A stretch of 64,000 nucleotides of DNA from Geminicoccus roseus DSM 18922 (GTDB taxonomy: Bacteria > Pseudomonadota > Alphaproteobacteria > Geminicoccales > Geminicoccaceae): NCBI RefSeq assembly GCF_000427665.1, contig NZ_KE386572.1:2318196-2382195 (forward strand), given 5' to 3'. Positions 8,083 to 62,046 of this stretch are shown piece by piece. The position numbers were made by a program, and so were the translations under genes. Positions within the stretch are counted from its first letter, which is position 1, and every line of letters starts with the position of its first letter. A model generated the notes under the pieces. It worked only from the letters and a program-made list of their open reading frames with translations, did no database searches and was not told the DNA's origin.

Positions 8083-9135
8083 ATGCCGACCTCTTCGCCC
8101 TGGTGGCAACCGCACATCCACGCCGACCGGCGCTCGTTTCTGCTCGGCCGCAATCGAATTCGCGATGCTCTGCGGCACTGGTTCGCTTCGCAAGGATTCA
8201 CGGAGGTCGACCCGTGCTGCCTGCAGGTCTCGCCGGGCAACGAAGCGCATCTCCACGCCTTCTCGACAGAAGCCCTAGCCACGGACGGTTGTTCCCTGGG
8301 GAGGCTGCACCTGCACACCTCTCCTGAGTTTGCCATGAAGAAGCTGCTGGCGGCCGGAAGCGGCGACATCGTCGCCTTCGCCCACGTGTTCCGCAACCGT
8401 GAGCGCGGACCATTGCACCATCCCGAGTTCACCATGATCGAATGGTACCGGACCCATGCGGATTACACCGCCCTCATGGCGGATTGCAGCGAGATCCTCG
8501 GCATGGCCGCCGAGGCCGCCGGGACGAGGCGGCTGACATGGCGGACCTGGTCGGCCGATCCGTTTCAGGCCCCGCTGCGGCTCAGCCTTGCCGAAGCGTT
8601 CGCGCGGGAGAAGATCGACCTGCTTGCTACTGTCGCTCCGGACGGCAGGACGGACCGCGACGCGCTGGCCGCGGCAGCCAAGGAAGCGGGGATCCGGCTC
8701 TCTGCGGATGATGGGTGGGGCGACATCTTCTCACGCGTCCTGGTAGAGCGGGTCGAGCCTGGCCTTGGCAGCGGCCGAGCCACGATCCTGTACGACTATC
8801 CCATCCCGGAAGCAGCACTCGCCCGCCCGAGCCCGAATGATCCGAGGGTTGCCGAGCGCTTCGAACTCTATGCTTGCGGTGTCGAACTCGCCAATGCGTT
8901 CGGCGAACTCACCGATCCGGAAGAGCAGCGTCGCCGCTTCGATGCCGACATGGACGAGATGCAGCGCATTTACGGCTACCGCTACCCGTTGGACGAGGAA
9001 CTCCTCAAGGCATTGCCGCTGATGCCAAGCAGCGCGGGCATTGCCCTGGGGTTCGACCGGCTGGCGATGCTGGCAACGGCGGCGCCATCGATTGAGCATG
9101 TGCAATGGGCGCCGGTTGCACAGGAATCCCGCTGA
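8083..9135 (+). CDS. epmA: EF-P lysine ligase EpmA (PoxA/GenX family)
   Basis: A 350-residue lysyl-tRNA synthetase paralogue without the anticodon-binding domain. It would attach (R)-beta-lysine to Lys34 of EF-P. Class II synthetase motif 2 is visible as FRNRERGPLHHPEFTMIEWY, and motif 3 as GIALGFDRLAML near the C-terminus. The segment HLHTSPEFAMKKLL is typical of the family. I chose the ATG at 8083, preceded by an AAGGAAAGG site, rather than a TTG 24 codons upstream. Its partner aminomutase EpmB is not in this window. Placement beside efp strongly supports the assignment. Confidence 0.93.
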   Translation: MPTSSPWWQPHIHADRRSFLLGRNRIRDALRHWFASQGFTEVDPCCLQVSPGNEAHLHAFSTEALATDGCSLGRLHLHTSPEFAMKKLLAAGSGDIVAFAHVFRNRERGPLHHPEFTMIEWYRTHADYTALMADCSEILGMAAEAAGTRRLTWRTWSADPFQAPLRLSLAEAFAREKIDLLATVAPDGRTDRDALAAAAKEAGIRLSADDGWGDIFSRVLVERVEPGLGSGRATILYDYPIPEAALARPSPNDPRVAERFELYACGVELANAFGELTDPEEQRRRFDADMDEMQRIYGYRYPLDEELLKALPLMPSSAGIALGFDRLAMLATAAPSIEHVQWAPVAQESR

Positions 9136-11508: not shown

Positions 11509-11540
11509 GCATCCCGCGTCAACGACCGCGGATGCTCCTG

Positions 11541-11571
11541 AAAAAAAGTGGCCGGATCTTTCGACCCGGCC
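11541..11571 (-). terminator. Intrinsic terminator on the minus strand
   Basis: Reading the minus strand, the stem GGCCGG/CCGGCC with a 10-base loop is followed after two bases by seven Ts. This is a standard Rho-independent signal. It faces the 3' end of the acyltransferase and lies about 500 bases beyond the stop of the Atm1-like gene. It could end that transcript or a separate minus-strand RNA. Confidence 0.6.
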
Positions 11572-12065
11572 GAGTAGATCAGGGAGGCTAAATGCCTGGA
11601 ACACGAACCGATGGTCCATGCGTCCGGCTGGGCCGGAGCGGACGAAAAGGGAGCTAGGCTCGCACCTTGCCGACCGCGGCAGCGCACTCCAGACCATGCT
11701 CTGCTGCACCGCGATATCGGGCGGCGCCCGGAGATTGGCAATCCCGGTTTATCGATAGCTGTCATGCATGATCAAACAGGATGGAACTGTCAGATAGCCG
11801 GGGACGTCGCCACTTCACCCGCCGCTCCCGCACGGCGAAGCGGATGGCACGGCAAGGATGACGCCGGAACCGGTCCGGCCGGCTCAACGCTATCGCCGGT
11901 TGCAGCCTATCTGCCTTTCGGGGGGGAGATGGTGAAGCTGCCGGCCCAGCCCGGTCCTGAGACCGCGGGGTCACATCCAGGGCCGCTGTCGGGACCTGCA
12001 CGTGCCGAAGGCCGGGAGGCACATGCCCCCTCCACGAAGGACGGCGCAGCTCCGCTCCTGCCGCT
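11572..12065. other. Gene-free stretch between the acyltransferase and the Atm1-like exporter
   Basis: About 500 bases with no frame that resembles a known protein on either strand. Open frames here have random-looking composition. With the minus-strand terminator at its left edge, this could be a long 3' untranslated region or a small-RNA gene. I do not recognise RNase P RNA, tmRNA, 6S or SRP RNA in it. Confidence 0.35.
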
Positions 12066-13880
12066 TCAGGACGAGGCGACCGCAGCCGCCGTGGATTGGC
12101 GAGCCCAGAGGTCGGCGTACAGGCCGCCACGCGCCAGCAGGTCGGCATGGGTGCCGCGTTCGACGATCCTGCCCTCGTCGAGCACCAGGATCAGATCGGC
12201 GTCCACGATCGTCGACAGGCGATGCGCCACCACCAGCGAACTCACCCCTGCCACCAGTCGGGCGAGATTGGCCTGCACGGCTTCCTCGGTCGCTGCATCC
12301 AGGGCGGACGTCGCCTCGTCCAGGATCACGATCCGCGGCCGCTTGAGGATCGCCCGCGCTATCGCCACCCGCTGCTTTTCCCCACCCGAAAGCTTCAGTC
12401 CGCGCTCCCCCACCAGCGTGGCATATCCGTCCGGAAGCGTGTGGATGAACTGGTCCAGTTCCGCGGCGCGCGCGGCTTCCTGGATCTCCCTCTTGGATGC
12501 CTCGGGACGGCCGAAACCAATATTGTAGCCGATGCTCTCGTTGAACAGCACCGTGTCCTGCGGGACCACCGCAATCGCGGCGCGCAGGCTGTCCTGGGTG
12601 GCCTCGCGGATGTCCTGGCTATCCACCAGCACCCGCCCGCTGGTCGGGTCATAGAAGCGGAACAGGAGGCGGGTGATCGTCGATTTGCCGGATCCGGTAG
12701 GGCCCACCAGCGCAACCTTCTGCCCGGGCAGGACGGTGAAACTGACATCGTGCAGAATTGCCCGCTGGTCGTTGTAGGCAAAGCCGACGTTCTCGAAGCG
12801 GACCTCGCCTGCTCCAGCTTGCAGCGGCCTGGCGCCCGGACGATCGGAGATCTCCGGAGTCTCGCCCAGCAGATCGATCAGCAGTTCCAGGTCGACCAGC
12901 GCCTGCTTGATCGACCGGTAGAGCTGTCCCAGCCGCTCCATGGGCCGGATCAGCTGGAGCAGATAGGTATTCACCAGGACGAGGCTGCCGATCGTCATGC
13001 TGCCGTTCTGCACGCGTCCCGCCGCCGAGAACAGGATCACCGCCATGCCGATGCCAAGGATCGTCACCAGGACGATTCCGGTAATGCTGCGGAAGGTCAG
13101 CGCCCGCACGGTCAGGCGCTCGACCTCGGCCAGGCTTGCATCGTAGCGCGCGGCGACATGGTCCTCGTTGCCGAAATACTTGACCGTCTCGTAGTTGAGC
13201 AGGCTGTCGATGGCTTCCCCGTGGGCGGCCGCACTGCGGCCCGCCGCCAGCTTCTGGTGGCTGCGCAGCCATTCCGAGCCCACCACGAGCACGACCAGGT
13301 ACACCGCCAGGGTCGCGAACAGCACCAGGGCGAAGAACGGCTCGACCCGCACCAGCATCACCGCCGCAACGAACAGGATCTCGATCAGGAGGGGAAGGAT
13401 CAGGAACACGACGTTGAACAGGACCTCGCGCAGGCCGGTCAGGCCGTTCGCGAGCACGCTGCCGATCTGCCCGGTGCGACGGTCCAGATGGAAGCGCAGC
13501 GACAGGCCATGCAGGTGCTCCAGCGCCTTCAGGCCGAAGCGGCGCCGTAGTCGTTGCTCGAGGGGGCCATAGAACATCCAGCGGAGCTCGTTGCCCAGGC
13601 GAGAGAACCATTGCAGCAGCACGTAGCCGGCGAGGATCGCGGCAGGTGCTGCGATGTCCGCATGCGCTCCGGCCAATTGGTCGACGAGTGCGGCAAAGAG
13701 CAGCGGCACCAGCGCGTTGATGCCTGCGGCGCTGGCCAGCAGGCCGATCGTGCCGGCGAAGCGCAGGCGATATCCAGGAAGATCGCGTGGCCAGAAGACC
13801 TTGAGGAGCTGGTAGACGGAGGGGATCTGTCGCTGGGAGGCGGCGCCCTCCTGAACGAGCGCCTGGAGGTCGCGGGACAA
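12066..13880 (-). CDS. Atm1/HMT1-type ABC exporter
   Basis: A 604-residue half-transporter fusing six membrane helices to an ATPase domain. The phrase NYETVKYFGNEDHVAARYD is characteristic of the Atm1/ABCB7 branch. That branch exports glutathione-linked sulfur species or metal-glutathione complexes across the inner membrane. Walker A is ALVGPTGSGKST, the signature is KLSGGEKQRVAIARAI and Walker B is RIVILDEATSALD. It would act as a homodimer. It is divergent from the MFS permease at 13982. Substrate is inferred from the branch only. Confidence 0.9.
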   Translation of the reverse strand: MSRDLQALVQEGAASQRQIPSVYQLLKVFWPRDLPGYRLRFAGTIGLLASAAGINALVPLLFAALVDQLAGAHADIAAPAAILAGYVLLQWFSRLGNELRWMFYGPLEQRLRRRFGLKALEHLHGLSLRFHLDRRTGQIGSVLANGLTGLREVLFNVVFLILPLLIEILFVAAVMLVRVEPFFALVLFATLAVYLVVLVVGSEWLRSHQKLAAGRSAAAHGEAIDSLLNYETVKYFGNEDHVAARYDASLAEVERLTVRALTFRSITGIVLVTILGIGMAVILFSAAGRVQNGSMTIGSLVLVNTYLLQLIRPMERLGQLYRSIKQALVDLELLIDLLGETPEISDRPGARPLQAGAGEVRFENVGFAYNDQRAILHDVSFTVLPGQKVALVGPTGSGKSTITRLLFRFYDPTSGRVLVDSQDIREATQDSLRAAIAVVPQDTVLFNESIGYNIGFGRPEASKREIQEAARAAELDQFIHTLPDGYATLVGERGLKLSGGEKQRVAIARAILKRPRIVILDEATSALDAATEEAVQANLARLVAGVSSLVVAHRLSTIVDADLILVLDEGRIVERGTHADLLARGGLYADLWARQSTAAAVASS

Positions 13881-13981
13881 GGAAGTCTCCTGGAGGCGGC
13901 GCGGCGGTCGGGATCGTGGTACGCCCGGCGTGCGGCGGCAAGGTGCCGGCCCCTGGGAAGCAGTGCCGGATCGGCTTCACG

Positions 13982-15163
13982 ATGTCCTTCTCCCTCCAAC
14001 GCAGTGCAGGTCCGGCCCTGGGCCCCCTGGTCCTCGCGGGGCTCGCCGCCCTTCTGACCGGCATCGGCCTCGGCCGCTTCGCCTATGCCGCCCTGGTGCC
14101 CGGGATGATCGGCGAGGGCCACGTGGATGTTGCCGGTGCCGGCTATCTCGCCGCTGCCAATGTCGGGGGCTACCTGATCGGCGCGGCCGGGGGAGGGCGG
14201 ATCGGCAGGCGGTTCGGAACCGTCCATGCCCTGCGCGGCTCGATGATCGGGACGGTGCTGGCGCTGCTGGCCTGTGCCGTTCCATTTTCTTTGGCATGGC
14301 TGATTGTGGCGCGCCTGGTAGCCGGCATTACCGGCGGCTTCCTGATGGTGCTGGCGGCACCGGCGGTGCTGGCGCGGATACCAGCGGAGCGGCGGGGAAG
14401 CGCTGGCGGCATCCTGTTCACCGGCATCGGCCTGGGCATCACGTTCTCGGGGGTGGTGGTGCCGCTGCTGGCCGACCTGGGGACTGGTCCCGCCTGGGCA
14501 GTGCTGGCGCTCCTGGGAGCCGGGCTCACCGTCCTGACCTGGAACGCATGGCCCGGCCAGCCGGTGGAGGCCGCGGCTTCCGGCGCGCCCGCAGCGGCAC
14601 CGCAGGCGCGACCGCGCCTGATGCTGCTGGGCGTGGCCTATGCCAGCGATGCCATCGGCTTCGTCCCCCACACGGTCTACTGGGTGGACTTTGTGGCGCG
14701 CGATCTCGGCTACGGGATCGGCATGGGCGGGATCCAATGGAGCCTGTTCGGCCTGGGCGCGGCCGCCGGCCCGGCCGTGATGGGCATGGTCGCGCAGCGG
14801 ATAGGCTTTGGGCGGGCGTTCGTCCTGGCGCTCGGCATCAAGGCTGCGGCGGTGATCCTGCCGGTGCTCTCGCCATCGGTTCCGGCGCTGGTGGTATCCT
14901 CGATCCTGGTCGGCGCCCTCACGCCGGCGTCTGCCTCCCTGGCCGCCGGTCGCATCACCGAACTGCTGCAGACGGACCGGCGCCAGCAGGCCTGGGCGCA
15001 GATGACCATGCTGTTCGCCCTCGTCCAGGCGCTGGGTGCTGTGGTCATGGCGGAACTCGCCGCAGCCACCCACCAGATGGCGCTGCTGTTCCTGCTGGGC
15101 GGCTCCCTCCTGGCTCTCGGCGCAGGAGCCGCAGAAATCCATCGGCGTCTTCTCGATCGGTGA
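13982..15163 (+). CDS. YbfB/YjiJ family MFS permease
   Basis: A 393-residue membrane protein with about twelve hydrophobic segments. The opening GIGLGRFAYAALVPGMI and the segment GYLAAANVGGYLIGA are typical of the YbfB/YjiJ branch of the major facilitator superfamily. Substrates of this branch are not established. I take the ATG at 13982; an upstream in-frame GTG at 13916 would add a non-membrane extension. A strong hairpin follows the stop. Confidence 0.8.
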   Translation: MSFSLQRSAGPALGPLVLAGLAALLTGIGLGRFAYAALVPGMIGEGHVDVAGAGYLAAANVGGYLIGAAGGGRIGRRFGTVHALRGSMIGTVLALLACAVPFSLAWLIVARLVAGITGGFLMVLAAPAVLARIPAERRGSAGGILFTGIGLGITFSGVVVPLLADLGTGPAWAVLALLGAGLTVLTWNAWPGQPVEAAASGAPAAAPQARPRLMLLGVAYASDAIGFVPHTVYWVDFVARDLGYGIGMGGIQWSLFGLGAAAGPAVMGMVAQRIGFGRAFVLALGIKAAAVILPVLSPSVPALVVSSILVGALTPASASLAAGRITELLQTDRRQQAWAQMTMLFALVQALGAVVMAELAAATHQMALLFLLGGSLLALGAGAAEIHRRLLDR

Positions 15164-34408: not shown

Positions 34409-35155
34409 ATGCCTATCGTCCCCGGCTTCCAGCTCGTCGCCACGCGGTCGTTTCCCCCGCTGGCCGCACGCCTGCACGAGCTGGCGGAGCTGGGCTACGT
34501 CAAGGTCGAGCCGTATGACGCCCTGTTGCGCGATCCTGGCGGGCTCGCCTCGATGTTCAACCATGCCAACCTCACCTGCCCGAGCATCCATGCGGAGCTG
34601 CCGCGGTTTCGGACCGACGTGCAGCGGGTGATCGGGATGGCCGACATCCTGCGGGCCGGAACGGTGGTGATCCCGAAGCTCACCGTGGCGGACCATCCCC
34701 AGGATACGCCCGGCTGGATGCGCTTTGCGGCGGAACTGGCCGGCTATGCGATCAAGCTCAAGACCGCCGGCAAGCGGCTCGCCTGGCATAACCGGGAGTT
34801 GGAGTTCGCGCCTCTGCCGGATGGCAGCACGCCCATCGAGCACCTGTTCGAGGCCAGCCCAGACATCCTCTGGGAGATCGACCTCGCCTGGGTGGTTCGG
34901 GCCGGTCAGGATCCGACGGCCTGGATCGAGCGATGGCCGGAACGGATCGTCGCCGTCCACCTCAAGGACATCGCGCAGAGCAGCTCGGGCGCCGAGTGGG
35001 TCTGGGCCGATCTTGGACACGGGATGCTCGACTGGGACCTGATCGTGCCGGCGCTGAAGAAGGCGGGCTGCCAGCACTGGTACGCCGAGCACGGAGCGCC
35101 CCTCGACTTCGACCGCTGCGCCATGCGGGCCATCGAGACGATGCGGAGCTGGTGA
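34409..35155 (+). CDS. Sugar phosphate isomerase/epimerase (xylose-isomerase-like TIM barrel)
   Basis: A 248-residue AP-endonuclease-2-type barrel. Metal-binding residues are expected in LAWHNRELEF (His and Glu), EIDLAWVVRAG, VAVHLKDIAQ and the last HWYAEHGAP segment. Proteins of this fold isomerise or epimerise sugars or inositol derivatives. The substrate is unknown and there is no sugar gene next to it. The start is the ATG at 34409; an AAGGAAAAGC ribosome site lies just upstream. Confidence 0.85.
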   Translation: MPIVPGFQLVATRSFPPLAARLHELAELGYVKVEPYDALLRDPGGLASMFNHANLTCPSIHAELPRFRTDVQRVIGMADILRAGTVVIPKLTVADHPQDTPGWMRFAAELAGYAIKLKTAGKRLAWHNRELEFAPLPDGSTPIEHLFEASPDILWEIDLAWVVRAGQDPTAWIERWPERIVAVHLKDIAQSSSGAEWVWADLGHGMLDWDLIVPALKKAGCQHWYAEHGAPLDFDRCAMRAIETMRSW

Positions 35156-35273: not shown

Positions 35274-36569
35274 CTATGCTTCCAGGGCGTCCAGGAAGGG
35301 AGAACGCGACAGGACCTCTGCGCCACTGCTCGTGATCAGGACCTGCTGCTCCAGCTTCACGCCCTCGGCTCCGCCCACCGCTCCGATATAGCTTTCCACC
35401 GACACCACCATGTTCTCCTCGAACACGCCGTCATAGCCCCAGTCGGCGAAGTCCTGGGCATAGACGATGGCAGGGTACTCATCGACCATGCCGACCCCGT
35501 GGATCAGGGTCATGTAGCGGTTGGCGACATAGGCTTCCGGGACCTGCCATGCCCGCTCGACGAAGTCGCGGAACCCGAGACCGGCGTGGAGCAGGCCGAT
35601 GTTGTGCAGCACCTGCTCCTGGGCGATCTCGTAGAGCGTCCGCTGCTCGTCCGAGGGGCGGCGCCCGGGGCAGAGTTGGGTGCGGGAGATGTCGGCGAGA
35701 TAGCCGTGGGGCCCGACCATGTCGGTGTCGAACCCGACCAGGTCGCCCGGCTGGATCACCCTCTCCGAGCATTCCTGGAACCACGGGTTGGTCCGCTCGC
35801 CCGAGGCCAGCAGCCGGCACTCAATCCACTCGCCCCCATGGGTGATGTTGGTGGTATGGAGGATGCTCCAGAGCTGGTTCTCGCTGATCCCGGGCTCCAG
35901 CGCCGCACGCATCCGGTCCACTGCTAGGTCGCACACTGACATGGCGTGGCGCAGGCAGGTCACCTCCTCGGGCAGCTTCACCATCCGCGCCTGTTCGACC
36001 ACCTCCTGGGCGTCGAACAGGGCGATGTCGCGCGCCATGAGCCGGGTCGTCCCGGCGGGATTGCAGCGGTCCACGGCGAGGCGCCGGTTGCCGCCACCAT
36101 GACGCTCGACCAGCCACGCCACTTCCTCCGCCCAGATCCTGGCCTTCTCCTCCAGGCGCGGCCCGGCGATGAAGTACGTCCAGCCGGTCCCGATCCGCAG
36201 CTCGTCTACGCTGGCAAGACCTTCGCCCAGATGGCGGCTGGCAGCGAACTCGAACAGCACGACCGGCCCCTCGGTGGCGACGAACACGTAGCGGCCGCCT
36301 TCCCGCATCGTCCAGATCGCCATGTTCCTGGCGCCCGTGGCATAGCGGATGTTGATCGGATCGGAGAGCAGGGCTCCTGCGTAGTCGCGCTTCTTCAGTT
36401 CTGCCCGCAGCCGCTCCAGCCGACCCTGCCGCAGTCGCTCCTCATCGATCTCGCCGATCCTCCGGATCAGGTCGGCATCCACCGGATCGACCTGCCACTC
36501 CGGCTGGCTGGGGGATGCCGTCCTGCCGGTACCGGCAATCCTGCTGGTGTAGGAGCGATCGTACGCCAT
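35274..36569 (-). CDS. M24-fold metalloprotein resembling DMSP lyase DddP
   Basis: A 431-residue two-domain M24 (pita-bread) protein. The N-terminal creatinase-like domain has NIRYATGARNMAIW near residue 73. The catalytic domain carries Asp281, Asp283, Asp293, His357, Glu392 and Glu407 as metal ligands. Asp363 (MVDEYP) sits where DddP has its catalytic base. As I recall the published DddP numbering (295, 297, 307, 371, 406, 421, and 377), every one is offset by exactly 14. HGGGNRRLAVD and ASGERTNPWFQE are also shared. It could cleave dimethylsulfoniopropionate, or be an Xaa-Pro-type peptidase. The ATG at 36569 is preferred. Confidence 0.8.
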   Translation of the reverse strand: MAYDRSYTSRIAGTGRTASPSQPEWQVDPVDADLIRRIGEIDEERLRQGRLERLRAELKKRDYAGALLSDPINIRYATGARNMAIWTMREGGRYVFVATEGPVVLFEFAASRHLGEGLASVDELRIGTGWTYFIAGPRLEEKARIWAEEVAWLVERHGGGNRRLAVDRCNPAGTTRLMARDIALFDAQEVVEQARMVKLPEEVTCLRHAMSVCDLAVDRMRAALEPGISENQLWSILHTTNITHGGEWIECRLLASGERTNPWFQECSERVIQPGDLVGFDTDMVGPHGYLADISRTQLCPGRRPSDEQRTLYEIAQEQVLHNIGLLHAGLGFRDFVERAWQVPEAYVANRYMTLIHGVGMVDEYPAIVYAQDFADWGYDGVFEENMVVSVESYIGAVGGAEGVKLEQQVLITSSGAEVLSRSPFLDALEA

Positions 36570-36743
36570 GTGCCCCCGCGCGTCCGGCCTCCTTCGCTCA
36601 TGCGCCGCCTGACACTTCCATGCAAGACGGGCCGCGGCGGTGCGGGTCAAAGGCAGATGGCGACGTTCGGCCGCTCGCCTTGCCATGGTCACGGCCCGAC
36701 CTCATCATCCTGATTGCCGAGCCAACAAACGGGAGGCCAGACG

Positions 36744-39700
36744 GTGGACGAAACACAAGGTTCGGAATTCGAGCCGCTGGCAGTGGTGGATCAACTCGTC
36801 ACCAGCCGGGTGCCGCCCGGTGAGCGCGACCTGGTGGAGGCCTTCGTCGAGCGCTTCTTCGACGGCGTCGCCGAGGAAGACATCGCTGCCCATGATCCGG
36901 CCGACCTCTACGGCCTGGCGATCAGCCATCTGGACCTCGCCCACGACCGCAAGCCGGGTGCCACCAGGATCCGGATCTTCAATCCCGGCATCGAGCGGCA
37001 TGGCTTCACCGCCGCCCACACCCTCGTCCAGATCGTCAACGACGACATGCCGTTCCTGGTGGACAGCGTGCATATCGCGGTCGGTCGGGCCGGCCTTGCC
37101 ATTCACCTGACCATCCACCCGGTGATCTCTGTTCGCCGCGACGCCGAGGGCCGGCTTGAGGGCATCGGCGAAGGTGGCCAATCCGAGAGTTTCATCCTGG
37201 TCGAGGTCGACCGTCGTACCGACCAGGACGCTCTTGACCGCCTGGAATCGGAGATCCTCCGCGGCATTGAGGACGTGCGCCGGGCGGTCCGCGACTGGAA
37301 ACCGATGCTGGCCCGGGTCGCCGAGGCTGCCGCGGGCCTGATCCATGTGCCAGGTGAGAACGCTTCGACGGAGAGCGGCCAGGGGCCTGTCGATGTCGAG
37401 GAGCCGGTGGCGTTCCTGCACTGGCTGGCCGACAACCATTTCACGTTGCTTGGCTATGCCGCCTACGATCTGGTCGAGGAAGAGGCGGGGCCGGAACTGA
37501 TGCGGGTGCCCGGCTCGGCGCTGGGCATTCTTTCGGCCAGCCAGGATGCGCGGGTGCCGTCTGATCGGCCGGTCATGTCGACCAGCTTCGCCGCCCTGCC
37601 GGTAGAGATACGGCGCAAGGCCTTCCGGCCGCTGCCGCCCATCACCGTCACCAAGGCCAACACCCGGGCCACCGTCCACCGCGCCTCCTATCTCGATTAC
37701 GTCGGCGTGAAGCGCTACGACGAGCATGGCGCCGTGATCGGCGAGCACCGCTTTCTCGGCCTGTTCACCTCGGTCGCCTACAGCCTGCCGCCCCAGGTCA
37801 TCCCGCTCCTGCGCGGCAAGGTGCGGGCTGTCACCGAGACGATGAAGCTGCCGCCCCATGGCCATGCCGCCAAGGCTCTCGCCCATATCCTGAGCTCGCT
37901 GCCCCGCGACGAGCTGTTCCAGATGGATGTGCCGCGCCTGCGGGAAACGGCCCGGGCCGTCCTGCAGATGCAGGATCGCTCGCGCCTGAAGCTGTTCCTG
38001 CGGCAGGACCGCTTCTCCCGGTTCTTCTCGGTCTTGCTCTACGTTCCCCGCGAGCGCTGGACGACCGCCATGCGCGAGCGGATCCAGCGGATCCTGCTGC
38101 GCCGGCTGAACGGGGTGGACTGCGAATTCCAGGCCCAGCTGGGCGACAGCCCGCTGGCCCTCATCCTGTTCATCATCCGCTCCCAGGACCCCGGCGAACT
38201 CTCGATCACCGCGGAGGACCTAGAGGCGGAGATCACCCAGGCGACGCGGCCCTGGGGAGAAAGCCTGCGCGATGCGCTGGTCGAAGCCCATGGCGAGGAG
38301 CGCGGGGTCCACCTGTTCAGCCGCTACGCGGCATCGTTCCCGGTCTCCTATCAGGAGCGCCACCAGCCGCGGGCCGCGGTCGCCGACATCGACCGGATCG
38401 ATGCGCTCCAGCAAGGCGGCGCCAGCCTGTCCGTGGCGCTGTCCCGGCCTCTGGAGATCCGCGGCAACCGGATCCGCCTGAAGCTGGCCCATGCCGGCCA
38501 GCGGGTGGCCCTGGCCGATGTCCTGCCGATCCTGGAGGATCTGGGCCTGCGCGCCCTGGCCGAGGACTCCTATCCCGTCGCCGGCCAGGATGGGCAGCCC
38601 TTCTGGCTGCACGACTTCGAGGCGGAGCCGGTGTTTGCGGGAACAATCGACCTGGATGTGGTCGGGCCCCATTTCGAGGAGGCATTCCGGCGGATCTTCG
38701 ACGGCGACATCGAGACCGACGGCTTCAACCGCCTGATCCTGGCTGCCTCGCTCAATGCCGACCAGGTCGTGATCCTGCGCGCCATCTGCAAGTATCAGCT
38801 TCAGGTCGGCCTGCCGTTCAGCCAGCCATACGTCGAGCAGACCGTGGTGGCCAATCCGGATGTGGCACGCGACTTGGTCGAGCTATTCCACGTCCGGTTC
38901 GACCCCTCCATCCAGGGCGACCGGCAGGCCGCGCAGGCGGAGCTGGTCGAGCGGATCACCCAAGGCCTCACCCAGGTCGCGGTTCTGGACGAAGACCGGA
39001 TCCTGCGCCGGTTCCTGGGCACCATCCAGGCCATGCTGCGCACCAACGCGTTCCGGCCGGGGCGGCGCTCGCTTTCCTTCAAGCTGGACAGCGCGGCCGT
39101 CCCTGGCATGCCGCAGCCGGCTCCCTGGCGCGAGATCTTCGTCTATGCGGCCGATGTCGAGGCCGTGCACCTGCGCGGCGGACCGATCTCGCGTGGCGGC
39201 ATCCGCTGGTCGGACCGCCGGGAGGACTTCCGGACCGAGATCCTTGGCCTGGTCAAGGCGCAGATGGTCAAGAACGCGGTGATCGTGCCGGTGGGGGCGA
39301 AGGGCGGCTTCATCGTCAAGCGCCCTCCCAAGAACACCGACCGCCAGGCGATCTACGACGAGGGGGTGCGCTGCTACCGGACCTTCCTGGACGGCATGCT
39401 CGACCTGACCGACGACATCCAGGGCGACACGACCGTGCCGCCCGAACGGGTGGTCCGCCACGACACCGACGATCCCTATCTGGTGGTTGCCGCCGACAAG
39501 GGCACCGCCACCTTCTCCGACATCGCCAATGCGCTGGCGACCGGCCGCTCGTTCTGGCTGGGCGACGCGTTCGCCTCGGGCGGTTCGGCAGGCTACGACC
39601 ACAAGAAGATGGGGATCACCGCCAAGGGTGCCTGGGAGTCGGTGCGCCGCCACTTCCGTGAGATGGGCGTCGACCCAGAACGGGACCCGATCAGCGTGGT

Positions 39701-41564
39701 CGGCATCGGCGACATGTCCGGCGACGTGTTCGGCAACGGGATGCTGCTCAGCCGCTCGATCCGGCTGGTGGCGGCGTTCGACCACCGCCACATCTTCCTG
39801 GACCCTGATCCAGATGCCGAACAAACATTCCGGGAGCGCCAGCGCCTGTTCGAGCTGCCGCGCTCGTCCTGGGACGATTTCGACCGCAGCCTGATCAGCA
39901 AGGGCGGCGGTGTCTTCTCCCGCCAGTTGAAGGCGATCCCGCTCTCGCCCGAGATCCGTGCGGTGCTCGGGATCGAAGCCGGCAGCCTCACCCCGTTCGA
40001 GCTGATGAGCGCCATCCTCAAGGCGCCGGTCGACCTGTTCTGGAATGGCGGCATCGGCACCTACATCAAGGCTGCCGCCGAGAGCCACCGGGACGCCCAG
40101 GACCGCGCCAACGATCCGATTCGCGTCAACGGCGAGGACCTGCGCTGCAAGGTGGTCGCGGAGGGCGGCAATCTGGGAGTGACCCAGCGCGGCCGGATCG
40201 CGTTCGCCCGCAAGGGCGGACGGATCGGCACCGACTTCGTCGACAACTCGGCCGGGGTCGACTGTTCGGACCACGAGGTCAACATCAAGATCCTGACCGG
40301 CTCGGTGGAGCAGGCCGGCGATCTCACCCGCAAGCAGCGCGACCTGATGCTGCGCGAGATGACCGACGAGGTCGCCGAACTGGTCCTGCGCGACAACACC
40401 CTGCAGAACCTGGCGCTCTCCACCACCGAGCACCGGGGACTGGAACTGCTCGACAGCCAGATCGGCCTGATCCGTTCCCTGGAGCGCAGCGGCCGGCTGG
40501 TGCGCCAGCTCGAGTTCCTGCCTTCCGACGACAATTTGGCCGAGCGCCGCCGAGATGGGGTCGGCCTGACCCGTCCGGAGCTGGCCGTGCTGCTGGCCTA
40601 TGCCAAGATGGACCTGTTCGACGCCTTGTGCGACGGCAGCACCATCGACGATCCCATGCTGGCCGGCGAACGCCTTCGCTATTTCCCGCGCCTGATCCGC
40701 AAGCGCTTCCCCGAAGCGGTCGCCAGGCACCGGCTGGGCCGGGAGATCGTGGCGACCCGGCTGGCCAACGGGATGGTCAACCGGGCCGGGATCTCGTTCG
40801 CTCAGGATCTCGCCAACGAGACCGGCGCCTCCTTCGACGAGATCGCCCGGGGCTACCTGATCGTGCGCGAGGGTTTCGAACTCACGCCGGTCTGGGGGGC
40901 AGTCGAGAACCTGCCGGCGAGTGTCGGGCGGCAGCAGATCGCGCTCCTCACGGATCTCACCCGCACCACCGCCGAGGCGGTCCGCTGGACGATCGTCCAT
41001 GACCTGAGCAACCGGCCGCTGCGGGAGACCGCCGAGCGGCTGCAGGCAGGAATCCGCACCTTGCGCGAGCAGATCGAGGGGCTGGCCCCGCCGGCGCTGA
41101 AGGAGACTTTGGCCGGACGCTGCCAGGAACTGCGCGGCCTGGGGCTGGACGCCGACGCCGCCAGCCGGCTCGCGGTCCTGCCGCTCACGACCGTGCTGCT
41201 CGACGCCCTCGATACCGCGTATAGCACCGGGGTGCCGGTCGAGCGCTCCACCGAGATCCGTCTGGCGCTGGACGAGACCCTAGACTGCCACCGCATCGAC
41301 GTGCTGATCGAGCGGATCAGCGTGCGCAGTTCCTGGGATCACGAGGCGAAGGCGGCGCTGCGCGACGAACTGGCGGAGATGGTGCGGCGGGCCGCCCACG
41401 ATGTCCTTGCCAAGCACGAGCCGCTGGACGCATGGCGGGAACGCCGGCGGAACGCCATCGAGCGCTATCTTGCGGTGCTGGCGCGTGCAGAAAACGAGCC
41501 GACCATCGACCCGGCCATCGTCGGCTCGGTGATCCGCTCGCTCGGCAGGCTCACGGCGGGCTGA
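36744..41564 (+). CDS. NAD-specific glutamate dehydrogenase, large (GDH-180-like) type
   Basis: A 1606-residue oxidative-deamination enzyme turning glutamate to 2-oxoglutarate with NAD. The N-terminal third has ACT-like regulatory domains (PFLVDSVHIAVGRAGLA, FLGLFTSVAYS). The catalytic core lies in the middle (GGPISRGGIRWSDRREDFR, VIVPVGAKGGFIVK). The NAD-binding part has VVGIGDMSGDVFGNGMLLS near residue 1000. A helical C-terminal part ends the protein. I start at GTG 36744, with GGGAGG seven bases before it, rather than TTG at 36714. The type is standard for alphaproteobacteria. Confidence 0.95.
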   Translation: MDETQGSEFEPLAVVDQLVTSRVPPGERDLVEAFVERFFDGVAEEDIAAHDPADLYGLAISHLDLAHDRKPGATRIRIFNPGIERHGFTAAHTLVQIVNDDMPFLVDSVHIAVGRAGLAIHLTIHPVISVRRDAEGRLEGIGEGGQSESFILVEVDRRTDQDALDRLESEILRGIEDVRRAVRDWKPMLARVAEAAAGLIHVPGENASTESGQGPVDVEEPVAFLHWLADNHFTLLGYAAYDLVEEEAGPELMRVPGSALGILSASQDARVPSDRPVMSTSFAALPVEIRRKAFRPLPPITVTKANTRATVHRASYLDYVGVKRYDEHGAVIGEHRFLGLFTSVAYSLPPQVIPLLRGKVRAVTETMKLPPHGHAAKALAHILSSLPRDELFQMDVPRLRETARAVLQMQDRSRLKLFLRQDRFSRFFSVLLYVPRERWTTAMRERIQRILLRRLNGVDCEFQAQLGDSPLALILFIIRSQDPGELSITAEDLEAEITQATRPWGESLRDALVEAHGEERGVHLFSRYAASFPVSYQERHQPRAAVADIDRIDALQQGGASLSVALSRPLEIRGNRIRLKLAHAGQRVALADVLPILEDLGLRALAEDSYPVAGQDGQPFWLHDFEAEPVFAGTIDLDVVGPHFEEAFRRIFDGDIETDGFNRLILAASLNADQVVILRAICKYQLQVGLPFSQPYVEQTVVANPDVARDLVELFHVRFDPSIQGDRQAAQAELVERITQGLTQVAVLDEDRILRRFLGTIQAMLRTNAFRPGRRSLSFKLDSAAVPGMPQPAPWREIFVYAADVEAVHLRGGPISRGGIRWSDRREDFRTEILGLVKAQMVKNAVIVPVGAKGGFIVKRPPKNTDRQAIYDEGVRCYRTFLDGMLDLTDDIQGDTTVPPERVVRHDTDDPYLVVAADKGTATFSDIANALATGRSFWLGDAFASGGSAGYDHKKMGITAKGAWESVRRHFREMGVDPERDPISVVGIGDMSGDVFGNGMLLSRSIRLVAAFDHRHIFLDPDPDAEQTFRERQRLFELPRSSWDDFDRSLISKGGGVFSRQLKAIPLSPEIRAVLGIEAGSLTPFELMSAILKAPVDLFWNGGIGTYIKAAAESHRDAQDRANDPIRVNGEDLRCKVVAEGGNLGVTQRGRIAFARKGGRIGTDFVDNSAGVDCSDHEVNIKILTGSVEQAGDLTRKQRDLMLREMTDEVAELVLRDNTLQNLALSTTEHRGLELLDSQIGLIRSLERSGRLVRQLEFLPSDDNLAERRRDGVGLTRPELAVLLAYAKMDLFDALCDGSTIDDPMLAGERLRYFPRLIRKRFPEAVARHRLGREIVATRLANGMVNRAGISFAQDLANETGASFDEIARGYLIVREGFELTPVWGAVENLPASVGRQQIALLTDLTRTTAEAVRWTIVHDLSNRPLRETAERLQAGIRTLREQIEGLAPPALKETLAGRCQELRGLGLDADAASRLAVLPLTTVLLDALDTAYSTGVPVERSTEIRLALDETLDCHRIDVLIERISVRSSWDHEAKAALRDELAEMVRRAAHDVLAKHEPLDAWRERRRNAIERYLAVLARAENEPTIDPAIVGSVIRSLGRLTAG

Positions 41565-48057: not shown

Positions 48058-49566
48058 TCATATGGCAGCCAGATGGCCTACCCGCACCGCCTCGGCGACG
48101 CCGCTGATCTCCCGGCCAAGCTCGCGGTCGTCCTCCAGCTTGGGGCTGATCGCGCGGATCCGGGCGAACGCCTTCTCCAGCCGCGGCGAGGAGCGCAGCG
48201 GCCGGCGGAACTCGATGCCCTGCGCTGCCGCCATCAACTCGACCGCCAGGACGTGGGCCAGATTCTCCGCCATGTCGGACAGTCGCCGGGCGGCATAGGT
48301 GGCCATGCTCACATGGTCCTCCTGGTTGGCCGAGGTCGGCAGGCTCTCCACCGCCACCGGGTTGGCCAGGTGCTTGTTCTCCATCTGCAGCGCCGCTGCG
48401 GTCACCTGCGCGATCATGAAGCCGGAGTTGAGCCCGGGCGAGGGGGTGAGGAACGCCGGCAGCAGCGAGAAGCTCGGGTCGATCAGCAGCGCGATGCGCC
48501 GCTCGGAGATCGACCCGATCTCCGCCATGGCCAGGGCGATCCGGTCGGCCGCCATCGCCACCGGCTCGGCATGGAAGTTGCCGCCGGACAGGATCAGGCC
48601 GTCCTCCGGAAACACCAGCGGATTGTCGGAGACCCCATTGGCCTCGCGCTCCAGGATCCCTGCCGCATCGGACAAGAGGTCCCAGCACGCCCCCATGACC
48701 TGGGGCTGGCAGCGCAGGCAGTAGGGATCCTGCACCCGGTCGTCCCCGAAGCGGTGGCTCTCCCGGATCTCGCTGCCCTCCAGCAGCAGCGCCAGTTCGG
48801 CGGCGACGATGCCCTGGCCGATCTGGTTGCGCAGCTTCTGGATGCGCGGATCGAACGGCGTGTCTGATCCCTTGGCCGCGTCCACGGTCATGGCTCCTGC
48901 CAGGAGCCCGGACTTGAGCAGGGCCTGGGCCTGCCACCAGCCTGTGATCGCCAGGGCGGTCGAGACCTGGGTGCCGTTCAGCAGCGCCAGCCCCTCCTTG
49001 GCGCCGAGCGTCAGCGGCTGGAGCCCGATCCTTGCCAGCGCCTCGTCCGCCGGCAGCGTCTCGCCCTTCAGCCGGATCTGGCCGACCCCGATCAGCGCCC
49101 CGCTCATGTGCGCCAGCGGTGCGAGGTCGCCGGATGCGCCGACCGATCCCTTGGCCGGGATCACCGGCAGCGCGTCGTGGCGCAGCATGGTGAGCAGCGC
49201 CTCGATCGTCTCGACCTTCACCCCGGAATGGCCATGCGCGAGGGAGGCTGCCTTCAGCACGAGCACGAGGCGCACCACCAGGTCGTCCAGCGGCCGGCCG
49301 ACCCCGCACATGTGGCTCAGGACCAGCCGCTTCTGCAGTTCCTCGACCTGGGCCGGGGAGATCCGGGTCTGCGCCAGCTTGCCGAAGCCGGTATTGACGC
49401 CATAGGTCGCCGCATCGGCCGCCGCGGCATCCGCCACCAGCCTGGCCGCCGCCTCGATCTTCGGCCGGAACGATTCGTCCAGCACGAGGTCGAGGCCCGG
49501 AGCCGCAACCCAACGTGCCAGTTCATCCAGCACCAGCCTGCCCGGAATCAGCACCGGCATGCCCAA
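48058..49566 (-). CDS. hutH: Histidine ammonia-lyase
   Basis: A 502-residue enzyme making urocanate from histidine. The MIO prosthetic group forms from Ala144-Ser145-Gly146 in KGSVGASGDLAPLAHM. The N-terminal GVNTGFGKLAQTRI has the active-site Tyr/Asn region, and the C-terminal NQEDHVSMATYAARRL is also diagnostic. Related aromatic lyases share the fold, but SHMCGVG at residues 84-90 fits histidine lyase. No hutU, hutI or hutG lies beside it, which is unusual. The start may be the ATG at 49566 or at 49560. Confidence 0.93.
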   Translation of the reverse strand: MGMPVLIPGRLVLDELARWVAAPGLDLVLDESFRPKIEAAARLVADAAAADAATYGVNTGFGKLAQTRISPAQVEELQKRLVLSHMCGVGRPLDDLVVRLVLVLKAASLAHGHSGVKVETIEALLTMLRHDALPVIPAKGSVGASGDLAPLAHMSGALIGVGQIRLKGETLPADEALARIGLQPLTLGAKEGLALLNGTQVSTALAITGWWQAQALLKSGLLAGAMTVDAAKGSDTPFDPRIQKLRNQIGQGIVAAELALLLEGSEIRESHRFGDDRVQDPYCLRCQPQVMGACWDLLSDAAGILEREANGVSDNPLVFPEDGLILSGGNFHAEPVAMAADRIALAMAEIGSISERRIALLIDPSFSLLPAFLTPSPGLNSGFMIAQVTAAALQMENKHLANPVAVESLPTSANQEDHVSMATYAARRLSDMAENLAHVLAVELMAAAQGIEFRRPLRSSPRLEKAFARIRAISPKLEDDRELGREISGVAEAVRVGHLAAI

Positions 49567-58082: not shown

Positions 58083-59456
58083 TCAGCGTTCACGCAGCGC
58101 CTCGGAGCGAGCGCGCAGGATCGGCTTCAGCAGATAGTCCATCACCGTCTTCTTGCCGGTCAGGATGTCCACCTGCGCGGTCATGCCCGGGATGATCTCC
58201 AGGGGCCGTTCCTCGGTCCCCAGATAGGCCCTCTCGGTCCGCACCCGGACCCGGAAGAAGGTCTCGCCGCGCTCGTCGGCCAGCGTGTCGGCGCTGATGT
58301 CCTCGACCCGGCCCTGCATCCCGCCATAGATCGAGTAGTCGTAGGCGGTGACCTTCACCGTTGCCGGCAGGCCCGGGCGCAGGAAGGCGATGTCGGAGGG
58401 GCGCACCATTGCCTCGACCAGCAGCGTGTCCTCGATGGGCACGATCTCCATGATCTCGCCGCCCGGCGGCAGCACCCCGCCCACGGTGTTGATCTTGATC
58501 TGCTTGATCAGGCCGCGGACCGGGGAGCGTACCTCGGTACGACGGACCTGGTCGGCGCCGGCTGACACCATTTCCTTGATGCTCTGCAGCTCGGTCCGCT
58601 TCAGGGTCAGCTCGCGCAAGGATTCCGAGCGGAACTCGCTCTGGACCGCCTGGATCCGGTGGTTGGCCTCCTGGAGGGCGGCCTCCGCCCGAGGCTTTTG
58701 CAGCCGTGCCTGGTCGAGCGAGGACTGCAGGTCCAGGACCTGCCGGCGCAGCCGCAGCACGTCCATCTTGGAGAAGATGCCCTTGGCGGCCAGCGGGGTC
58801 GCCATGTCGAGTTCCTGGGTCGCCAGTTCCAGGGAGGCGGCCAGGCTCTGCTCCTTGTTGGCAAGCTCGGTCAGCTCGTTCTCACGCTGCTCGACCTGCC
58901 GGCGGAGGACGGAGATCTGGTCGTTCAGCTGGTCCTGGCGCGACTGGAAGAGGCTGAGCTCGCTTCGCGCCAGCATCGGGGCATTGTCCATCACCTCGTC
59001 GGGAAACTCGAGCTCGCGCCCGTCGATCTGCGCCTGCAGCCGCTCGACTGAAGCAAGGAGGCCCCAGTAGCGGATCATGTTCTCCCGGTAGTCGCTGGCG
59101 GCCCGGACGTTGTCGATGCGCGCCACCACCTGGTCCTTTTCGACCAGATCGCCCTCCCGCACCAGCGTCGCGGCCAGGATGCCGCCTTCCAGGTTCTGGA
59201 CGATCTGCACCTGCCGGGAGGGGATGACCCGCCCCTGGCCATGGGTCACCTCGTCCAGGGTCGCCCACTGCGCCCACCAGAAGAACACCACCACGAACGC
59301 CACCACGCACCAGAGGATCAGGTGGCTGAACAGCCGCGGCTTCCAGCGCGAGGCGCCATGGGCGCCCGGGATGAAGGCCTGCTCCGGGCCGCCGCCGAGC
59401 GACCAGCCCTTGGGGGCGGGGACCGGGTTGCGCCCGGCCTGTCTGGTCGCCATCAA
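58083..59456 (-). CDS. Type I secretion membrane-fusion protein (HlyD family)
   Basis: A 457-residue adaptor with one N-terminal membrane helix (about residues 42-62, LILWCVVAFVVVFFWWAQWA). A lipoyl-like half (GRVIPSRQVQIVQNLEGGIL), long periplasmic coiled coils (about residues 120-290) and the beta-barrel end (GMTAQVDILTGKKTVMDYLL) follow. It links the ABC exporter to an outer-membrane channel. Its start overlaps the end of the ABC gene by four bases (ATGA). Confidence 0.94.
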   Translation of the reverse strand: MMATRQAGRNPVPAPKGWSLGGGPEQAFIPGAHGASRWKPRLFSHLILWCVVAFVVVFFWWAQWATLDEVTHGQGRVIPSRQVQIVQNLEGGILAATLVREGDLVEKDQVVARIDNVRAASDYRENMIRYWGLLASVERLQAQIDGRELEFPDEVMDNAPMLARSELSLFQSRQDQLNDQISVLRRQVEQRENELTELANKEQSLAASLELATQELDMATPLAAKGIFSKMDVLRLRRQVLDLQSSLDQARLQKPRAEAALQEANHRIQAVQSEFRSESLRELTLKRTELQSIKEMVSAGADQVRRTEVRSPVRGLIKQIKINTVGGVLPPGGEIMEIVPIEDTLLVEAMVRPSDIAFLRPGLPATVKVTAYDYSIYGGMQGRVEDISADTLADERGETFFRVRVRTERAYLGTEERPLEIIPGMTAQVDILTGKKTVMDYLLKPILRARSEALRER

Positions 59457-61726
59457 CGCTCTCCTCGGATCTGGCCGGACGACAACGCCTTGAGCACCTT
59501 CTCCTTCGGTCCGTCGGCGGCGACCTTGCCGTTGTCGATCACCAGGATGCGCTCGGCCAGGGTGAGCATCGACTGGCGATGGGTGACCAGCAGCACGGTC
59601 CGGCCGGCGATCTCCCGGGCAAGGCGCGCCTTCAGCCGGTTCTCGGCCCCGGTGTCCATGGCGCTGGTGGGCTCGTCCAGGATCAGCACGGGCGGATCCA
59701 GCAGCATGGCGCGCGCCACCGCCACCGCCTGGCGCTGGCCGCCGGACAGGGCCTCGCCCCGTTCGCCGACATGCAGGTCGTAGCCCATCGGGTGCCGGGT
59801 GGCGAACTCCTCCACGCCGGAAATCCGCGCCGCCCGCAGCACCGCCTGGTCGTCGACGAAGGCGGCGCCCAGGGTGATGTTGTCGCGCAGGCTGCCCTGG
59901 AAGAGATAGACGTCCTGCGGCACGCAGCCGATGCTGCGGCGCAGGTCCGCCGGGTCGAGCTGGCGCACGTCGGTGCCGTCGATCAGGACCGCGCCCTCCT
60001 GCGGCTCATAGAGGCCCAGCACCAGCTTCTCGATGGTGGTCTTGCCCGAGCCGATCCGCCCGATCAGCGCGACCCGCTCGCCCGCCGAGATCTTGAACGA
60101 CACGTTCTGCAGGGCCGGCAGCTTCTGGTTCGGGTAGGTGAAGGTGACGTTCTTGAACTCGATGTCGCCGCGCAGCGACGGCCGGTGCACGAACCGGCTG
60201 CCTTCCGGCCGCTCGGTCGGCAGCGCCATGATGTTGTTCAGGGTCTCCAGGGAGGTGCGCGACTGGTGGAAGCGGGTGAGCAGGGCGGCCACCTGCCCGA
60301 GCGGCGCCATTGCCCGGCTGCCGATGATGGTGCAGGCGATCAGGGCGCCCACGGTCAGTTCGCCCTCGGCGATCTTGTAGACCCCCATCACCACCATGCC
60401 GACATAGACGAGGTTCGCGGAGGTCGCGGCGAAATTGACGGTCAGCGACGAGAGGAACCGCGCCTTGTTGGCGGTCTGGGCGGTGGTCGCCACCAGCCGC
60501 TCCCAGCTGCGCTGCATCCGTCCCTCGGCGGCCACGCTCTTGATGGTCTCCAGGCCGTTGATGGCCTCGACCAGCAGGCCGTGCTTCATCGAGGTCTCGC
60601 GGAAGCTTTCCTTGACGATCCGGTCGAGCGGCAGCTGCATGAGCAGTCCTACCCCCAGCACCAGCGGCACGGCGATGCCCGGGATGATGACGAGGTCGCC
60701 GCCGATCAGGAACACGATCGCCAGGAACAGGACGATGAACGGCAGGTCGACCAGGGCAGTCACGGTGGCCGAGGTGAAGAAGTCCCGCAGCGTCTCGAAT
60801 TCCCGCAGGTTGCTGGCGAATGCGCCGGCCGAGGCCGGGCGGCTGGCCAGCCGGATGCCCATGACCTGCTCGAAGATCCGGCTCGCCATCACGACATCCG
60901 AGGCGCGCCCGGCGGTATCCACAAAATAGCCGCGCGCCGTCTTCAGGATGAAGTCGAAGGCGAAGATGATCAGGGCGCCGATCGCCAGCACCCATAAGGT
61001 TTCCAGCGCGTTGTTCGGCACGACCCGGTCGTACACGTTCATGACGAACAGCGGCGAAACCAGGGAGAAGACGTTGATCAGCAGCGCCGCGATCAGGACC
61101 TCGATATAGACCGGCCACTGCTTGAACAGGGTCGACCAGAACCAGTGGTCGCCGAAGCGCGGGGCTGGATTGCGCTTGTCCCGCTCGTTCAGCTCCAGCT
61201 CGGGCCGGGCGAAGAAGGCATGGCCGATATAGATCCGCTCCAGCTCGGCCAGGTTGATCTCGCGCACGCCCAGCCCGGTCTCCGGCACGATGATCCGGAC
61301 CTTGTCGTCGTCGCGGGAAATCAGCACGCAGCTGCGCCGGTCGCGCAGGAGCAGCACGCAGGGCAGCGCCAGCTCGTCGATGTCGCGCAGGCCGCGGCGG
61401 ACCAGCTTGGCGTCCAGCCCGGCGCGCTCGGCGGCGCGGGGGAACAGGGCGGGGGTGAGCCGCTCGTCCTCCAGGGGCAGGCCGGCCCGCAGCGCGTCCG
61501 CCGACGAGGCGCGATCGAGCAGATGGGTGAGGGCCACCAGGCTGGCCAAGAGCGGATCGTCGATCTGCGCCGTGGAGGTGCGGATCCGCCACTGGGGCTG
61601 CTGCGGCTTGGGCGCGTCCGCTGCACGCGCCGGCGGAACCGGGTCGGCCGCGGCATTCGGATCCGCGGTCGGGTCGGCCACCGTGCGTTCGGATCCACCT
61701 TCTGGCTGGATCTCCGTCATCATCAT
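59453..61726 (-). CDS. Type I secretion ABC exporter (LapB/LssB-like)
   Basis: A 757-residue transporter with an N-terminal C39-like domain (about residues 50-190) that lacks the protease Cys, so it probably only binds substrate. Six membrane helices follow, then the ATPase. Walker A is ALIGRIGSGKTTIEKL; the unusual GRIGSGK form is typical of the LapB/LssB branch, which secretes very large adhesins. The signature is ALSGGQRQAVAVARAM and Walker B VLILDEPTSAMD. It is divergent from the TolC-like gene. No obvious substrate is encoded in the window. Confidence 0.93.
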   Translation of the reverse strand: MMMTEIQPEGGSERTVADPTADPNAAADPVPPARAADAPKPQQPQWRIRTSTAQIDDPLLASLVALTHLLDRASSADALRAGLPLEDERLTPALFPRAAERAGLDAKLVRRGLRDIDELALPCVLLLRDRRSCVLISRDDDKVRIIVPETGLGVREINLAELERIYIGHAFFARPELELNERDKRNPAPRFGDHWFWSTLFKQWPVYIEVLIAALLINVFSLVSPLFVMNVYDRVVPNNALETLWVLAIGALIIFAFDFILKTARGYFVDTAGRASDVVMASRIFEQVMGIRLASRPASAGAFASNLREFETLRDFFTSATVTALVDLPFIVLFLAIVFLIGGDLVIIPGIAVPLVLGVGLLMQLPLDRIVKESFRETSMKHGLLVEAINGLETIKSVAAEGRMQRSWERLVATTAQTANKARFLSSLTVNFAATSANLVYVGMVVMGVYKIAEGELTVGALIACTIIGSRAMAPLGQVAALLTRFHQSRTSLETLNNIMALPTERPEGSRFVHRPSLRGDIEFKNVTFTYPNQKLPALQNVSFKISAGERVALIGRIGSGKTTIEKLVLGLYEPQEGAVLIDGTDVRQLDPADLRRSIGCVPQDVYLFQGSLRDNITLGAAFVDDQAVLRAARISGVEEFATRHPMGYDLHVGERGEALSGGQRQAVAVARAMLLDPPVLILDEPTSAMDTGAENRLKARLAREIAGRTVLLVTHRQSMLTLAERILVIDNGKVAADGPKEKVLKALSSGQIRGER

Positions 61727-62046
61727 TCCTCGAACGTCAAACCACGATCACGCCACTGCCGCAGCGGCTGCCGGCCCGCCTGTGATACTTAGGGCACAAG
61801 GCCAGCCATCGGCGTTCTACCACCGACAGGTTAGCTTTCCCTTCCCATTCTCGCTTCTTAAACACAAGCTGTCGCAGCGTTGCTCCTGCGCACCATTCCG
61901 ATCACGAGATCATGAGTGGCGGGCGGCGCAACAAGTGGGATTTCCATGGGTGGTGCCGTTGACGCGTGTTCACGGGAAAGACTATCCAGGGTTGAAAGGG
62001 TTGCAAGCCCTTTCCCGGATGAAGCGATTCAGGGCGGAATGATCGG
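61727..62046. other. Divergent region between the ABC exporter and TolC-like genes
   Basis: About 320 bases with two opposed upstream regions. A stem of 7 bp, GAAAGGG and CCCTTTC with loop TTGCAAG (61994-62014), lies about 33 bases before the TolC-like start and may be an operator or a leader hairpin. No gene is seen. Confidence 0.35.

Follow-up and report, generated by a model that had tools for sequence, protein, structure and literature searches.

The window studied here, a stretch of 64,000 nucleotides from Geminicoccus roseus DSM 18922, carries a gene, P0001, that a first-pass annotation read as encoding an M24 protein with the active-site layout of the DMSP lyase DddP. The question raised by this locus is whether such a layout makes the product a DMSP lyase or is a common property of a broader family of metalloenzymes and, in the latter case, which type of substrate would be the most plausible.

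The P0001 gene and the active site of its product

P0001 is found alone between the genes of a TIM-barrel protein and of an NAD-glutamate dehydrogenase, with no betaine-type partners:

34409..35155, plus strand: xylose-isomerase-like TIM barrel protein, convergent neighbour (AP_endonuc_2, 35.4 bits)
35274..36569, minus strand: P0001, DddP-like M24 metalloenzyme gene (ORF read from 36569 to 35274, stop codon included; 431 aa)
36714..41564, plus strand: NAD-glutamate dehydrogenase gene, divergent neighbour (Bac_GDH_CD, 839.5 bits; start codon unsettled)

The product carries Peptidase_M24 (104 bits) and Creatinase_N (39.9 bits) domains, both above their Pfam gathering scores, and is, judged from its sequence, a member of the M24 superfamily (pita-bread fold). 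A phmmer search matched it to RlDddP (4RZY) with an E-value of 1.2e-83 (37% identity across 390 alignment columns), the next group, proline dipeptidase, starting from 8.4e-20. DddP residues are given here in the numbering of 4RZY, which agrees with that of the RdDddP paper (PMC4108388). The six metal ligands named for DddP in that paper (Asp295, Asp297, Asp307, His371, Glu406 and Glu421) align with P0001 residues 281, 283, 293, 357, 392 and 407, and the two residues that it puts forward as catalytic, Tyr366 and Asp377, with Tyr352 and Asp363. The offset is 14 throughout, so that the ligand spacing and constant offset claimed in the first-pass annotation are correct by alignment to RlDddP. The constant spacing is explained by homology, and the agreement in layout, with the six ligands, Tyr366 and Asp377 all present, is beyond chance. 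The residues concerned are listed below with their conservation in the DddP-like rows aligned in this work:

36312..36314, minus strand: Trp86 (= DddP Trp95), an aromatic residue in the N-terminal domain (W in 136/163 rows)
35727..35729, minus strand: putative metal ligand Asp281 (= DddP Asp295), by alignment (D in 163/163 rows)
35721..35723, minus strand: putative metal ligand Asp283 (= DddP Asp297), the extra sixth ligand (D in 163/163 rows)
35691..35693, minus strand: putative metal ligand Asp293 (= DddP Asp307), by alignment
35514..35516, minus strand: Tyr352 (= DddP Tyr366), substrate or base candidate according to PMC4108388 (Y in 163/163 rows)
35499..35501, minus strand: putative metal ligand His357 (= DddP His371), by alignment
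35481..35483, minus strand: Asp363 (= DddP Asp377), candidate for the catalytic base (D in 139/163 rows, G in the other 24)
35394..35396, minus strand: putative metal ligand Glu392 (= DddP Glu406), by alignment
35349..35351, minus strand: putative metal ligand Glu407 (= DddP Glu421), by alignment

Residues outside the metal site, on which the first-pass annotation made its reading depend, are conserved in part: Tyr366 and Trp95 are kept but Trp379, invariant in DddP, is a Tyr in P0001. The position of Trp95 is occupied by Trp in all 11 rows of the P0001 clade and all 11 rows of core DddP, and Trp86 may take part in substrate binding. Among the other tryptophans invariant in the core, those at 248, 262 and 277 are conserved in P0001, unlike those at 115, 312, 313 and 379; a review (PMC5395565) states that one Trp contacts the sulfur of DMSP but gives its position no number. 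Furthermore, the DddP-invariant HNPF at 98-101 reads REGG in P0001, which alone in its clade has Arg and Gly in place of His98 and Pro100, the ten other rows having His and Pro.

A hallmark of M24 peptidases is the second His in HGxGxxxHE. This His is missing from P0001, which reads HGVGMVDEYP, one residue shorter than the HGMGIVSHEAP of L002, an ordinary M24 protein of the same genome; at the position of Asp283, L002 has a Gly. The missing His and the presence of Asp283 argue against P0001 being a plain peptidase.

The predicted model of P0001 (monomer, pLDDT 88.4) is nearest to DddP, four entries of which reach Z 47.0-47.2 (rmsd 2.0 over 403 residues), followed by Xaa-Pro dipeptidase (Z 36.1) and then, among others, by ectoine hydrolase and creatinase (Z about 34). 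By this predicted model, DddP is the nearest solved structure, with Z 47 against 36 for the next family. The N-terminal 40 residues had been said to differ from DddP. The sequence alignment does begin only at residue 42-44, but the structural alignment begins at residue 29, so that about the first 28 residues have no counterpart in DddP; the pLDDT is below 50 at residues 1-12 and 15-25.

Ligand conservation and phylogenetic position

Relatives were gathered by whole-genome searches and from named contigs (up to 80 loci from contigs). As their selection relied on resemblance to P0001 or the DddP model, the counts below do not extend to remoter M24 proteins. A first alignment kept 133 of 146 matches, plus P0001 and RlDddP, after removal of exact duplicates and of matches spanning fewer than 340 query positions; the residue counts rest on 163 distinct DddP-like rows. 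All of these have the six ligands, Tyr366 and Trp277. The Asp/Gly change at position 377 is a single step on the 62-row tree described below, with P0001 on the Asp side together with all 11 members of its clade. The rows with Gly377 include loci of Halobacillus, Alkalibacillus, Pontibacillus and Alkalicoccus (L085, L087, L089, L092, L095 and other Bacilli), and their six ligands are intact.

Since relatives from Bacilli and Mesorhizobium, with about 50% identity among the matches listed, share these ligands, the ligands by themselves are no predictor of DMSP cleavage. An identification of P0001 as a DMSP lyase from ligand spacing alone is thus ruled out, as the ligands and the Tyr occur family-wide. 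In the sequences aligned here, the DddP ligand set characterises a large family and is no signature of DMSP lyases. One ocean survey attributes about 65% of ddd genes to DddP (PMC10686828). If the ligands and the catalytic Tyr are shared more widely (Mesorhizobium, Streptomyces, Halobacillus), motif or ligand checks cannot tell DMSP lyases from their relatives, and too permissive a cut-off may inflate the counts of a survey.

P0001 scores 359.5 bits (358.9 in the whole-genome search) against the NCBIfam DddP model NF043017, whose cut-off is 600. Matches above this cut-off occur in ten of 299 genomes, showing that the model does separate a core. Residues were compared between the P0001 clade (11 rows), the DddP core (11 rows) and 109 other rows, a duplicate row of the window protein being among the latter. 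P0001 is 36-41% identical to the 11 core DddP rows and 55-68% identical to its ten clade mates.

The main tree includes 62 of 165 rows (the 165 including the duplicate row of the window protein and one contained duplicate). An earlier tree included 69 of 135 rows plus L003, a peptidase-type protein whose branch length of 10 makes it too distant to serve as an outgroup; the trees are therefore in effect unrooted. The P0001 clade, which has 11 members in the family alignment (window copy included), is represented by ten rows in the 62-row unrooted tree with a support of 100/100, the bootstrap being not fully settled. It includes proteins from Prosthecomicrobium hirschii, an Acetobacteraceae MAG, a Hyphomicrobiales MAG, two Acidimicrobiia-type MAGs, Streptomyces sp. 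S3(2020) and three more genomes. This clade lies inside a 27-row set (98/97) that excludes DddP, itself placed in a clade of ten rows (100/98). A tree constrained to unite these two ten-row clades is worse by 61 log-likelihood units (p-AU 0.0056), a value to be taken as a guide since the grouping was defined once the tree had been seen. The tree is unrooted and the assayed divergent DddPs are not in it. On these sequence data, P0001 belongs to its own branch of the DddP-like M24 family, apart from DddP. With 359.5 bits against 600 and a clade of its own, its identification as DddP is not supported, so that the first-pass reading holds in part, for the metal site, Asp377 and Tyr366. The first-pass annotation had set a placement with peptidases outside the DddP clade against its reading; only the second half of this is found, since P0001 falls outside the DddP clade without grouping with peptidases, the sole peptidase-type row (L003) being too distant to root the tree.

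The source genome has one DddP-like gene, besides two far weaker M24 matches. Such genes are present in four of the 31 genomes of the window's family, source genome included, but not in the genus-mate, and the other three sit on other branches of the tree; such patchiness would be expected after gene loss or lateral transfer. At a larger scale, DddP-like matches were found in 78 of 385 genomes of the class sample, often in several copies (at most four candidates being scored per genome), and in 20 of 369 genomes of a second class (around G494).

Genomic surroundings of P0001 and of its relatives

A Pfam scan of the 16 window proteins found no ddd or acu gene and no linked pathway. Genome-wide searches in the source genome covered DddP, YhdH/AcuI and MttB. 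A homologue of the general acrylate reductase YhdH/AcuI scores 431.7 bits (cut-off 297.25). A candidate acrylate-handling gene, for which the first-pass annotation proposed a check, thus exists in the genome, but it is about 0.4 Mb from P0001 and unlinked to it. As YhdH is also reported from E. coli, this homologue would give weak support to DMSP cleavage. There is no MttB gene near P0001: the four MttB genes of the genome are all elsewhere by coordinates, and the three of their regions that were read contain no DddP-like gene. Elsewhere in the window, an aromatic amino acid lyase family gene (48061-49566, minus strand; Lyase_aromatic, 603.9 bits) adjoins an AI-2E family transporter gene, and positions 59456-63732 carry an ABC exporter gene (ABC_membrane and ABC_tran) with, in divergent orientation, a gene for an outer membrane efflux protein; together they may form a type I secretion set.

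The neighbours differ among members of the P0001 clade. MttB is directly upstream in L151, where a DAO+GCV_T dehydrogenase gene is next downstream on the other strand. Directly upstream in L077 are two permeases, an ATPase with a CBS domain and an OpuAC binding protein, as in betaine ABC transporters (the called genes overlap by one base, their starts coming from a heuristic). L070 and L074 have oligopeptide-type ABC transporter genes directly upstream and an ornithine-cyclodeaminase-family gene nearby, an OYE-type flavin oxidoreductase is among the neighbours in L070 and L150, and L149 has divergent hydantoinase A/B genes. No betaine link was found among the annotated neighbours of L069 (DUF4175, HlyD), L072, L149 and L152 (diacylglycerol kinase; contig edge). 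A gene of 3-hydroxyisobutyrate dehydrogenase type is directly upstream in L072, and such clusters occur in four of 42 representative loci (L072, L077, L106 and L108); in L072 (1721-2716) and L106 (9173-10129), which represent two distant branches, this gene adjoins the DddP-like gene. One may guess that such an enzyme could process a 3-hydroxy acid derived from acrylate.

In L088, L131 and L141 (Mesorhizobium/Aminobacter), mttB, the DAO+GCV_T dehydrogenase gene and the dddP-like gene are found together with, further on, a homocysteine S-methyltransferase gene. Among 93 loci, many of which are from Mesorhizobium, 44 have MttB-like, 44 DAO+GCV_T-like and 35 homocysteine-S-methyltransferase-like neighbours. 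The corresponding numbers among the 42 representative loci are six, six and two, besides SBP_bac_5-like (n = 7), OYE-like (n = 3), ornithine-cyclodeaminase-like (n = 2) and OpuAC-like (n = 1) neighbours.

A background rate was computed for MttB alone, not for transporters, dehydrogenases or other neighbours. The control set was made up of 12 genomes whose choice predates the observation of MttB (genomes of clade members, genomes with tandem copies and two genomes from the window's family), of the window's genome and of G014, which completes the members of this family that have a copy. Although likewise searched for MttB, the genomes of G318, G612, L088, L106, L108, L131 and L141 were left out, having been chosen after MttB was noticed or because of core DddP. 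At least 33 DddP-like genes are present in these 14 genomes (L153 has a further copy). MttB was found within 8 kb of 11 of the 33 listed, compared to 1.3 expected from random placement, and none of 20,000 simulations reached 11. Tandem copies not being independent, the count by genome is six of 14. Within 2 kb, MttB accompanies seven of the 33 genes (0.46 expected) in five of the 14 genomes. Two of the 14 (G382 and G011) are devoid of any MttB gene at the search threshold. The MttB frames found have no internal stop in every row except one, which has a TGA.

MttB is near core DddP in one of ten regions, L212 (G612:C13:53100-70400). This region contains the second DddP copy of G612 (796.2 bits, above the cut-off), with MttB and a DAO+GCV_T dehydrogenase nearby (features at about 7994-9109 and 10450-14390), the dehydrogenase being 73% identical to that of L157; betaine-type loci can thus harbour even core DddP. 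The loci L153-L157 carry DddP-like paralogues in tandem, L153 having five of them in about 15 kb, near MttB or DAO+GCV_T dehydrogenase genes.

MttB members without pyrrolysine act on quaternary amines. Demethylases of this superfamily have been named for carnitine, gamma-butyrobetaine, choline and glycine betaine, and genes for glycine betaine demethylation are described as clustering with those of later demethylation steps in proteobacteria (PMC12478193, whose main text does not contain the word "peptidase"). The MttB-type neighbourhood of the family therefore points to onium compounds, and its recurrence offers a concrete set of candidate substrates for DddP-like proteins. Judging by titles and the beginnings of abstracts, we found no paper that ties DddP-like M24 proteins to MttB loci.

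Candidate functions and comparison with known systems

The reading that we favour, with a probability of about one half, is that P0001 is a dinuclear-metal DddP-type enzyme of a separate clade, for which a small onium (betaine-like) carboxylate would be a likelier substrate than a peptide. DddP has been proposed to eliminate the onium group from a metal-held carboxylate (PMC5395565, PMC4108388). From this mechanism and the neighbourhood of the family, we infer that P0001 acts on onium carboxylates; it would bind two metals, its chemistry would by analogy resemble that of DddP, and it is probably a lyase. The two metals would hold the substrate carboxylate, Asp363, with Tyr352, would remove a proton from the alpha carbon and the onium group (sulfonium or quaternary ammonium) would depart from the beta carbon. 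The neighbours of the relatives point to betaine-like compounds generally, not to DMSP particularly, and DMSP is one candidate substrate among several, possible but unproven. This reading is favoured by the conserved ligands, Tyr366 and Asp377, the DddP-nearest model, the loss of the second His, the 11 of 33 genes near MttB and the L151 and L077 loci. Against it count the lack of such neighbours at the window copy, the differing neighbours within the clade, MttB at only one of ten core DddP regions, the change of Trp379 and the loss, in P0001 alone of its clade, of His98 and Pro100.

That P0001 is a true, divergent DMSP lyase yielding dimethyl sulfide and acrylate in the cell seems improbable to us, although every proposed catalytic residue is present and the genome has a YhdH/AcuI homologue above the cut-off. 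Divergent DddPs can work: an enzyme of a scallop symbiont was active when assayed, and its closest relative (55% identity), O. doudoroffii DddP2, is reported as phylogenetically distinct from and more efficient than DddP1 (PMC10989825). DMSP activity may therefore not be confined to the core. However, P0001 is below the NCBI DddP cut-off in a clade apart from DddP, the YhdH gene is unlinked and of a kind also found in E. coli, the window proteins include no ddd or acu gene, and the Bacilli and Mesorhizobium relatives hold the same ligands. We likewise give a small chance to an M24-type peptidase or amide hydrolase (Xaa-Pro-like or dipeptidase), supplied in relatives by oligopeptide ABC transporters. 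Its M24 and Creatinase_N domains would fit, and the transporters beside L070 and L074, with the SBP_bac_5-type neighbours of the representative loci, could point to peptides, but oligopeptide-type ABC transporters are common anyway. In addition, P0001 has lost the second His and gained a sixth acidic ligand, and a review states that RlDddP has no measurable Val-Pro activity (PMC5395565). An ordinary Xaa-Pro peptidase was put second on account of its fold score (Z 36.1 against 47) and of the missing His.

It is doubtful that P0001 cleaves or hydrolyses another small nitrogen compound without beta elimination, as a creatinase or ectoine hydrolase would. These enzymes have the same fold and the MttB and DAO+GCV_T partners of relatives fit methylated amines generally, but DddP is clearly nearer, both by its residues and by its fold (Z 47, compared to 34). 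A bolder proposal, which we regard as a long shot, is that DddP-like proteins are general onium-carboxylate lyases of betaine loci (MttB, dimethylglycine-dehydrogenase-like), with DddP as one marine offshoot; the P0001 clade would then free a tertiary amine together with acrylate, as would be the case if trimethylamine were released from beta-alanine betaine, the nitrogen counterpart of DMSP.

Compared to known systems, P0001 shares with Xaa-Pro dipeptidase/prolidase the M24 fold (Z up to 36) but, as judged against the single ordinary M24 protein L002, differs by the absence of the second His and by the extra acidic ligand Asp283. Creatinase and the ectoine hydrolase DoeA are alike in fold (Z about 34), with an identity of just 16-19%. 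Its clade mates (P. hirschii, the Acetobacteraceae MAG, the Acidimicrobiia MAGs and Streptomyces sp. S3(2020)) are 55-68% identical to it and vary in their neighbour genes. With DddP (RlDddP 4RZY, 4S00 and 4S01; RdDddP 4B28), P0001 has in common the predicted fold (Z 47), the six ligands, Tyr366, Asp377 and Trp95, whereas it differs by its 36-41% identity, its separate clade, its score below 600 bits and the changes of Trp379 to Tyr and of HNPF to REGG.
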